NCBI GenBank assembly: GCA_021498125.1
Contig: JAIZWL010000001.1
Coordinates: 961,434 to 1,025,433, forward strand
Length of the DNA stretch: 64,000 nucleotides
Source: Candidatus Thorarchaeota archaeon
Lineage (GTDB): Archaea > Asgardarchaeota > Thorarchaeia > Thorarchaeales > Thorarchaeaceae
Direction: 5' to 3'
Position 1 is the stretch's first letter; each line of letters begins with the position of its first letter. The notes under the pieces were generated by a model. That model searched no databases, was not told the origin of the DNA, and saw nothing but the letters and a program-made list of their open reading frames with translations. Of this stretch, positions 53,441-57,504 are shown piece by piece. The translations under genes and the position numbers were made by a program.

Positions 53441-54060
53441 TGTTCGCTCATCCGACGCTAGTTTTACAACCGTTGTTTTATATTTTATAAGTCTATGAAA
53501 ACAGTTCTCAGTTCTGACTTGAATCAATCCGATTAAATGATGATGCGATTAAATTCAAATAGGGTGTGATTCACATAGTCCAAGTGAGATTATGATCATT
53601 GACTTTTCTATTATATGGTTTCATTCACTTAAAACTTGATGTTCCAGCTCCATTCTGTTCATCAGTTTTGCTATAATTTATTTGGTATTGCTCCCCCTCT
53701 TGTGTTTTATACACACATTTCTTTGTTCGTTCTATTTTACTTTTCTTACTTGACTTGTTGTGAGAGATGTTCTGCTGTCACGAATCAGTTTAAGTTGGAT
53801 AGATGCTTCTGATTTTCAGATCTGTAGATAATAGATAACTCGTCCTAATGCTTGTTCTCTCATTGACTTTTCACATAAAGCCATCTTTTTCCACTCTATT
53901 TATAATCATGCTCCGGCTTCGGAAGAGCACATTGTTATGGTGACACAACAATTGTCCCATTTTAGTAAAGTATGTTTCAAAGTTTTTCAGATATCATGAC
54001 TAACTTGTAAGCAAAGTTTATACGCATTTAGTCTATTGATTGGTTGAGGAAGGAATTCTC
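53441..54060. other. 620-bp AT-rich region without genes
   Basis: No convincing reading frame was found on either strand. The sequence is AT-rich with several T-runs and would hold the promoters of the membrane protein gene on the left and of the protease gene on the right (AAAGTTTATACGC near 54014). A GAGGAAGG purine block at 54046-54053 is the ribosome site of the short frame starting at 54061. Confidence 0.5.
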
Positions 54061-55847
54061 ATGGGATATATGGGGATAGTGGGTCGTGCAATGAGTGCAC
54101 GAGTAAATCTAGGTCGGTCGGTCGTCATAGACGTAATTTCTTGAAACTGAGGACTGCACTGCTTGTGATCGCTGTGTTGTCGCCATTGTGGGTCATGCCG
54201 CTCTCAGCACCAGAGATATTTAACGTGCCAAAAGGGGATACTAATAGTGCTACACATCGGGCTTTCCGTAGCAGTAAGGAAACTGTTCCCTCTGAGAACT
54301 ATGTTCCAATAAATGAAATCTTGGCATGTCCTGTTTCTGATTCTGTAGACGCACATGCCGAGAACAAAAGAAAATTTTACAACATGATGGATGATAATTC
54401 CGCAATTCTTTTCCTCCAGACTGATTGGAAGTCACAAATTGAAACATATTCTAAAGAATGGATGTCAAACGGAACAAAGAACGATGCGAGCCAACAGAAT
54501 ATTCCGACCCGGGTTCCTTCCTATAGACAGGTTAGAAGCATTTGGAACGAATCTCATTCCCCCTCTTCCATAAATGTTCAGGACACAAGATTGTCCAAGA
54601 GTAAGACTGCTGGCTATTTTAGCGGGCATACGTGGTCGTGGGAATATGGTCCAAATGACCGCCATGTAGAAGCACCAGAAGTAGTACGACCACTAGAGGG
54701 TAACTGGTTCCCCCAGTCATCCTACTCTAGAATTACGTACCAAGCAGTCATATCCCCAATTTCCAAAATCTCGTTCCGTATCGAACGTGGTGCTGATACT
54801 TATGCCAGAAGGATACGACTCTATTGTGGCAATTACTTGCTTCTTGACGATGTAATCTCATCATCGGAGCAATACTATGAGGCCTCAATACTGACGACTA
54901 ATATTCCTTTGGGTATCTATTTTGTCATGATGGAGATTAATTATGGCGGTTACAAATTTCGTGGCTGGAATCTACGATACTGGCAGGTATTCTATTGTGA
55001 TAGTGAAGGTTATTATCAACCAACCAGAACTGCTTATCAGCAGTTTCAAAAAGAGCGATCGTCCACGCTCGAATTTTGTGTTCCAATGGGGCCTCACACA
55101 ATATTGAACCTAGAAACACAGAATTGCCACGATATTTACACGAGATTGTTGTACGTGTATGTGGACGATGTTCTCAAGCAGACCTTGTATGCCCCTGGTG
55201 CATATGAAGTTGAAATTGCGAATTTTGTTTCACCGGGACTACACGATTTGAAATTTGTGCTTTACTATGGTGATCACTTTTGGGGGTATTACTCAAAGTC
55301 AATCAGGCAACTATGTGTGACATACGAATACAAGCAAATTGAAGTAGATTCAATGGCGACTCATGTACAACCGTCCACAGTTTTTGAGAGGGTCGAAACA
55401 TATTACCGAACCCATGGCTATAGACGTATAGTATTTCATGTAGATGAAACTAATATCCCCTATGATTATGAACTCACATACAATGAGGTTAATAGTCTAT
55501 ATTGGTCACATTGTAATCACATAGGACAAGATAGATGGGTATGGGGACTTTACGGACATACTGTTAAAGATGCATGGGGCTGGGCACAATTTTCAGAACA
55601 GCGTTTTGTCATAGGAGATCAAGTATCAATTGATTTTATGAGTGGCTCCGTTTCTACGGAGGATAAACGGGTATGGATTCTTACTCATGAATTTGGTCAC
55701 ACAGAAAAAATGTTAGACTTTACAGGCTACAAGACTGATGTGTATACAGAAAAACAGTATGGGTTCACGTATGTGGATTGGTACACTCCACATTATCCAT
55801 CAAACAGTTGGCGTGATCGACTTGAATGGGTATGTAGTTATTGGTAA
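54061..55847 (+). CDS. Secreted HEFGH metalloprotease, start split from signal peptide by a tetranucleotide repeat
   Basis: A continuous frame runs from TTG 54141 (568 residues) with an N-terminal helix TALLVIAVLSPLWVMPLSA, a beta-rich middle and the zinc motif WILTHEFGHTEKML near residue 515. Read farther upstream in the same frame it gives RHRRNFLKL, the Tat signal consensus RRxFLK, but no start codon. The natural ATG with AGGAAGG before it is at 54061, in another frame, ending after 27 codons. Between the two lies GGTCGGTCGGTC (54112-54123). One more GGTC copy, or two fewer, would join ATG 54061 to the Tat signal. As read, the full protein needs TTG 54141 or a change in repeat number. Confidence 0.7.
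54112..54123 (+). repeat. (GGTC)3 tandem tetranucleotide
   Basis: Three GGTC units follow each other in the 5' end of the metalloprotease gene. Unit number is 3n+0 here, leaving the 54061 start out of frame with the Tat signal and protease. Short tetranucleotide arrays in such places act as phase-variation switches in bacteria; three units is short for this, so the role is inference. Confidence 0.6.
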
Positions 55848-57213: not shown

Positions 57214-57504
57214 ATGATGTACTTCGTTTATATAATCGAGACCGAGGACGGGACCTACTATACTGGTCAGACAAATGATCTCTCCCGCCGTATAACCGAG
57301 CATCTCTCTGGGACGACCAAGTCCGCACGATACCTGAGAATGCACAAACCGCGTTATCTCGTCTATCTCGAAGAGTGTGAAACTCGTGGGCAGGCAATGC
57401 GTCGAGAACGTCAGATTCAGAAGAATCGCCGTCTAAAGTTGAGCCTGATCGGCCCGCGACGAGATCTTCTGGAGTTTATTGAGACCCCGGATGATGGCTC
57501 GTGA
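57214..57504 (+). CDS. GIY-YIG endonuclease-like protein
   Basis: A 96-residue stand-alone GIY-YIG domain of the URI/YhbQ type. MMYFVYIIETEDGTYYTGQTNDLSRRITEHLSG has the family YVYIL…YTGxTxDLxRRxxEH form, with the tyrosines and arginine of the active site. An ELL(E) end with QAMRRERQIQKNRRL includes the catalytic glutamate region. These small nucleases cut DNA structures or take part in repair. It overlaps the FGGY kinase frame by 4 bp (57501-57504) but that gene's likely start is at 57570. Confidence 0.88.
   Translation: MMYFVYIIETEDGTYYTGQTNDLSRRITEHLSGTTKSARYLRMHKPRYLVYLEECETRGQAMRRERQIQKNRRLKLSLIGPRRDLLEFIETPDDGS

Follow-up and report, generated by a model that had tools for sequence, protein, structure and literature searches.

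Phase variation by simple sequence repeats is known from bacteria, mainly from host-associated species. At the tetranucleotide contingency loci of Haemophilus influenzae a four-base unit is repeated inside the coding sequence, near its 5' end, giving access to three frames. The opa genes of Neisseria are present in up to 11 unlinked copies with CTCTT repeats in the leader region; slippage in these repeats causes frameshifts, and recombination takes place among the copies (PMC3960869). A 2025 review places the archaeal distribution of phase variation as future work (PMC11868660). In the literature that we searched, with most subscription journals outside its coverage, no case of phase variation by simple sequence repeats was found in an archaeon.

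We analyzed a stretch of 64,000 nucleotides of a Candidatus Thorarchaeota genome (the window) which contains a metalloprotease-like gene preceded by a short GGTC array. As in Neisseria opa, many unlinked genes for presumably exported proteins carry a repeat near the signal peptide, the number of units sets the frame, and the copies are found in mixed states, probably with recombination between them. Unlike opa, the unit is a tetranucleotide present in few repeats (2-7), the organism is an Asgard archaeon, the TTG at the leader/body boundary may permit a second start, and the cassette is also found on a different gene, the protease. No homology to the Opa beta-barrel was observed: the bodies are either of mixed alpha/beta type with a hydrophobic C-terminus or metalloprotease-like, without Pfam or NCBIfam match. 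With a four-base unit repeated inside the 5' part of the coding sequence, the cassette genes recall the H. influenzae loci, whose arrays are however typically much longer and whose genes differ.

Leader and repeat at the window locus

The features of the locus are listed in Table 1. The ATG at 54061-54063 lies downstream of GAGGAAGG, and its frame, which translates as MGYMGIVGRAMSARVNLGRSVVIDVIS, closes at the TGA at 54142-54144. The protease frame has no ATG, GTG or TTG between the preceding stop and TTG 54141, and encodes RSVGRHRRNF directly ahead of that TTG. The two frames become joined if one GGTC unit is gained or two are lost. All this agrees with the original prediction, which had described an upstream start closing after 27 codons, a protease frame lacking any start before TTG 54141, and a three-unit repeat able to fuse the two. 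The TTTATA element lies some 40 nt ahead of the ATG, a position that makes a TATA role probable, with a presumed transcript start near 54046.

Table 1. Features of the cassette and of its passenger gene (positions in the window)
Feature	Position	Strand	Remarks
TATA-box-like TTTATA	54017..54022	+	starts the shared cassette; (T/C)TTAT kept in 12/12 copies
Ribosome-binding-like GAGGAAGG	54046..54053	+	GAGGA kept in 11/12 copies
Leader frame from ATG	54061..54144	+	27 codons; TGA shares bases with the following frame's TTG (TTGA)
Palindrome CGTGCA-N5-TGCACG	54085..54101	+	hairpin capable; pairing in 14 leaders
GGTC x3 array GGTCGGTCGGTC	54112..54123	+	frame-setting repeat; 2-7 units in paralogues
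Arg-rich RHRRNF stretch	54123..54140	+	translated only in the joined frame; no Tat signal
Signal peptide LKLRTALLVIAVLSPLWVMPLSA	54141..54209	+	end of the cassette; common to 10 other copies
Alternative start TTG 54141	54141	+	first codon of signal peptide LKLRTALLVIAVLSPLWVMPLSA
Metalloprotease-like body	54141..55847	+	568 codons; HEFGH motif at 55686-55700

Taken alone, the GGTC site is unremarkable, since about 0.93 perfect threefold tetramers of any motif are expected by chance in 64 kb and one was seen; GGTC x3 specifically occurred in 0 of 100 shuffles. The site rises above chance because the genome holds a family of 12 cassette copies. A chance repeat, permitted by single-site statistics, was rejected on account of this family.

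The palindrome of the leader is kept in 12 of 12 cassette leaders and also in two relatives; paired changes occur in it, as do wobble pairs. Across 14 leaders 84 of 84 cells pair, three of them changed on both sides, and the covariation expected of a hairpin is suggestive, 31 of 500 shuffles being as good.

The cassette family

A search of the whole genome with the protease returned the protease itself, two contig C7 genes with weak similarity to its body, and ten N-terminal matches, the latter covering only its first 30-50 residues and fused to other proteins. Searching with the leader pattern gave 12 cassette copies, on contigs C1, C2, C10, C11 and C14. They form a multilocus family whose members share the leader repeat and are in different frame states; most are unlinked, and three are neighbors on C2. 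The aligned copies share the TATA-like box, the ribosome-like site, the start codon, the palindrome, the GGTC array, the Arg-rich stretch and the signal peptide. Similarity drops ahead of the TATA-like box; in the protease gene it drops again past the signal peptide, the identity of the window gene to its paralogues collapsing beyond about +69. Ten copies carry members of a family with the signature SHGS...AC.S (C11_1 being truncated), one carries the protease, and from one the body has been lost; the truncated copies are C2_6 and C11_1. In the 3.1 Mb genome all nine (GGTC)3+ sites fall inside the cassette; most of those in the other genomes of the family lie in unrelated sequence.

Two copies or groups of copies have particular arrangements. 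At L028 (G000 C2:5000-18000) a stretch of less than 7 kb holds three cassette copies, one now devoid of its body, suggesting local duplication and recombination. In the cassette of L031 (C1:619k) a further tetramer repeat, ATTG/GATT, is longer by one unit; it lies between the TATA-like box and the ribosome site, within the presumed promoter-to-start spacing.

The genome is probably metagenome-assembled, and one may ask whether the unit numbers reflect assembly or sequencing errors in the GGTC repeat. We consider this extremely unlikely: arrays of 8-28 bases are far below read length, differences by whole GGTC units occur at 12 separate loci, and both 3-unit and 4-unit states are found in independently assembled genomes.

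Unit number, frame and choice of start

The number of uninterrupted GGTC units per cassette copy is 2, 3, 4, 5 or 7. Three of the 12 copies are in frame, through arrays of four units, of seven units, and of three units with a preceding AGTC. In the nine out-of-frame copies the leader closes either at a stop overlapping the boundary codon (six copies) or at a TAG just past the array (three copies). The in-frame fraction is close to the one third expected under free slippage, and the frame classes (6/3/3) show no departure from uniform, counts that also fit neutrality. Switching by repeat length, proposed in the original prediction from the window gene, is made credible by this comparison of 12 paralogous cassettes with 2-7 units, three in and nine out of frame. 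Two pairs of copies bear on the pace of these changes. In the closest pair, C11 and C14, a single mismatch is found over 127 aligned bases of leader and signal, but the arrays are one unit apart (the bodies diverge past +69). C2_11 and C2_6 have identical 40-base leaders with arrays of five versus two units. On this comparative evidence, unit number changes faster than the flanks.

We favor, as the somewhat probable explanation, an Opa-like variation of frame driven by slippage, in which GGTC number controls the cassette genes. Slipped-strand mispairing would add or remove units. With 1, 4 or 7 units the upstream start would be in frame with the signal peptide and body and a long protein would be made; with other numbers, ribosomes coming from the upstream start would stop inside the leader. 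Since its own unit number sets the frame between start and body, each cassette gene would behave as an independent contingency locus, the three units of the window copy representing the out-of-frame state. Recombination would exchange the cassette between genes, and we propose that the metalloprotease-like gene has the cassette because of such movement. Against slippage at a high rate speaks the shortness of the arrays (2-7 units), a range where bacterial slippage is slow. If true, the presence of such an Opa-like multilocus system in an Asgard archaeon would point to bet-hedging by sediment archaea with exported, presumably surface-located, proteins, perhaps against viruses or predators. Gene callers would label such genes as TTG-started or broken.

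Untruncated out-of-frame bodies (n=8 including the window gene) measure 245-568 codons. For the seven out-of-frame bodies of the SHGS family, dN/dS computed between copies over codons 24-110 is about 0.06-0.24, compared to 0.12-0.13 for the in-frame copies. These out-of-frame bodies are under purifying selection, and must therefore be used at times, or be translated from another start. This bears on the view that out-of-frame copies are recently broken genes and the array only a mutational weak spot. C2_6 and C11_1 are indeed truncated and the body of a cassette gene in another genus (G015) has frame breaks, but most out-of-frame bodies are long, open and as strongly constrained as in-frame ones, and the breaks sit at the array instead of being scattered; recent decay is in our opinion very unlikely as a general explanation.

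Another start is provided by the boundary TTG, and initiation at TTG 54141 is a serious rival to frame switching, although on balance we rate it as rather unlikely. The body would always start there, its signal peptide being short and ordinary; the leader would be an untranslated region or a short upstream frame, which in copies of the window gene's frame class has a TTGA overlap that may couple translation; and repeat length would be neutral or tune expression. Read from the TTG, MKLRTALLVIAVLSPLW is a good signal peptide. Eleven of the 12 copies have TTG or GTG as boundary codon, and most relatives have TTG there; as TTG makes up only 18% of Leu codons, it is kept above what codon use predicts. 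Distant relatives begin near the same point, two of them (L055 and L056) at a TTG after a ribosome-like site. Protein-level constraint also sets in at about the TTG: in this genome the leader shows none (pN 0.235, pS 0.18; for RHRRNF, pN 0.134 and pS 0.157), which weakens the view that the amino acids of the leader matter. The leader may only have to be in frame, or it may act as nucleic acid. In archaea, reinitiation after termination is an established process where stop and start codons overlap (PMC6728339), and the TTGA of the window copy, a 4-nt overlap, belongs to this coupled type; unlike in the described cases, the overlap with the leader stop exists here in only one of three repeat-length classes.

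Several observations argue against an exclusive TTG start. TTG 54141 has no ribosome-like site ahead of it, and a ribosome-like site, a TATA-like box and an ATG are conserved 80 nt upstream. The boundary codon is TTA in C10_21, CTG in L086 (genome G002) and CTT in L071 (genome G001). Because of its TTA, the out-of-frame C10_21 lacks any start ahead of the signal core, and its body of 378 codons is intact; as a simple alternative, this copy could be losing expression.

The relatives provide a further argument. We compared one genome per species; the named relatives are mostly Thorarchaeota, Heimdallarchaeota being more distant. In G002, of the same genus, two 3-unit cassettes with long bodies are both out of frame, one with boundary CTG and the other with TTG. 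G015, from another genus, has a 4-unit leader in frame with its damaged body, and in G012 the array is degenerate and the leader fused in frame. The comparison of frames and the count of GGTC units in relatives, both suggested with the original prediction, recovered the off state with three units in the sister species and the on state with four units in the other genus. The related leaders devoid of array (about ten) are all open in frame, some over more than 60 codons, and the apparent indels between them, read by eye, are of 3, 6, 9 and 18 nt, as if the leader were held in frame, which speaks against a constant TTG start. An open frame is found in 10 of 10 array-free relatives versus 4 of 15 leaders carrying arrays (p 0.0005 in a Fisher test that disregards relatedness).

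Frame switching and the TTG start could also combine into a switch with three states, a possibility that we consider unlikely. Arrays of 1, 4 or 7 units would give the long form; 3 or 6 units would lead to reinitiation at TTGA and to a form with the short signal; 2, 5 or 8 units would close the leader at the TAG just past the array and silence the gene. Spreading by recombination, the cassette would bring new genes, such as the protease, under the switch.

Export and passenger proteins

The RHRRNF stretch was originally read as a Tat consensus. The letters are present, but Tat export of the window protein was rejected. TatC was found in none of 47 family genomes, this one included (11 of 14 controls were positive, including three archaea). 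The twin-arginine pair is not conserved either, reading RHGRNL and RHRGDF in paralogues and GRYRSS, GRQHSL and GRGRMG in relatives. The most fitting interpretation is that of a conventional Sec-type signal, or of a membrane anchor, that is Arg-rich at its front.

The annotation of the window body as an HExxH metalloprotease, also part of the original prediction, is plausible from its motif, which relatives keep as HEFGH or HEYGH; among cassette genes, however, a protease is the exceptional passenger. These relatives, at the 51, 50 and 42% identity level, have different signal peptides. As the signal peptides of orthologues from other genera are unrelated, the window gene must have acquired the cassette. 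Searches of Pfam and NCBIfam gave no match for this protein, a PDB profile search gave nothing relevant, and the single-sequence structure model was poor (pLDDT 31) and unusable.

The Asgard SHGS family (L028-L035 for the copies of this genome; L107-L121) combines a signal peptide, a conserved SHGS...D..LAC.S domain and a highly variable membrane C-terminus; its bodies consist of a mixed alpha/beta domain followed by this variable hydrophobic part. It corresponds to no Pfam or NCBIfam family and has no PDB sequence match. The N-terminal domain was modeled with medium confidence, and a PDB fold search with it gave no significant match, procaspase-7 being among the weak ones. The succession of strand-HG and strand-AC.S in a mixed alpha/beta domain resembles clan CD peptidases (caspase/CHAT type), from which the family differs by the lack of a Pfam or PDB sequence match and of a significant fold match; it is possibly caspase/CHAT-like.

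Two further genes of G000, L002 and L003 on contig C7, match the window protease weakly; in them the beta-rich middle domains of the protease are joined to a seemingly caspase-like (C14) domain. A small gene of GIY-YIG endonuclease type is present at 57214-57504 of the window (Pfam E 7e-17).
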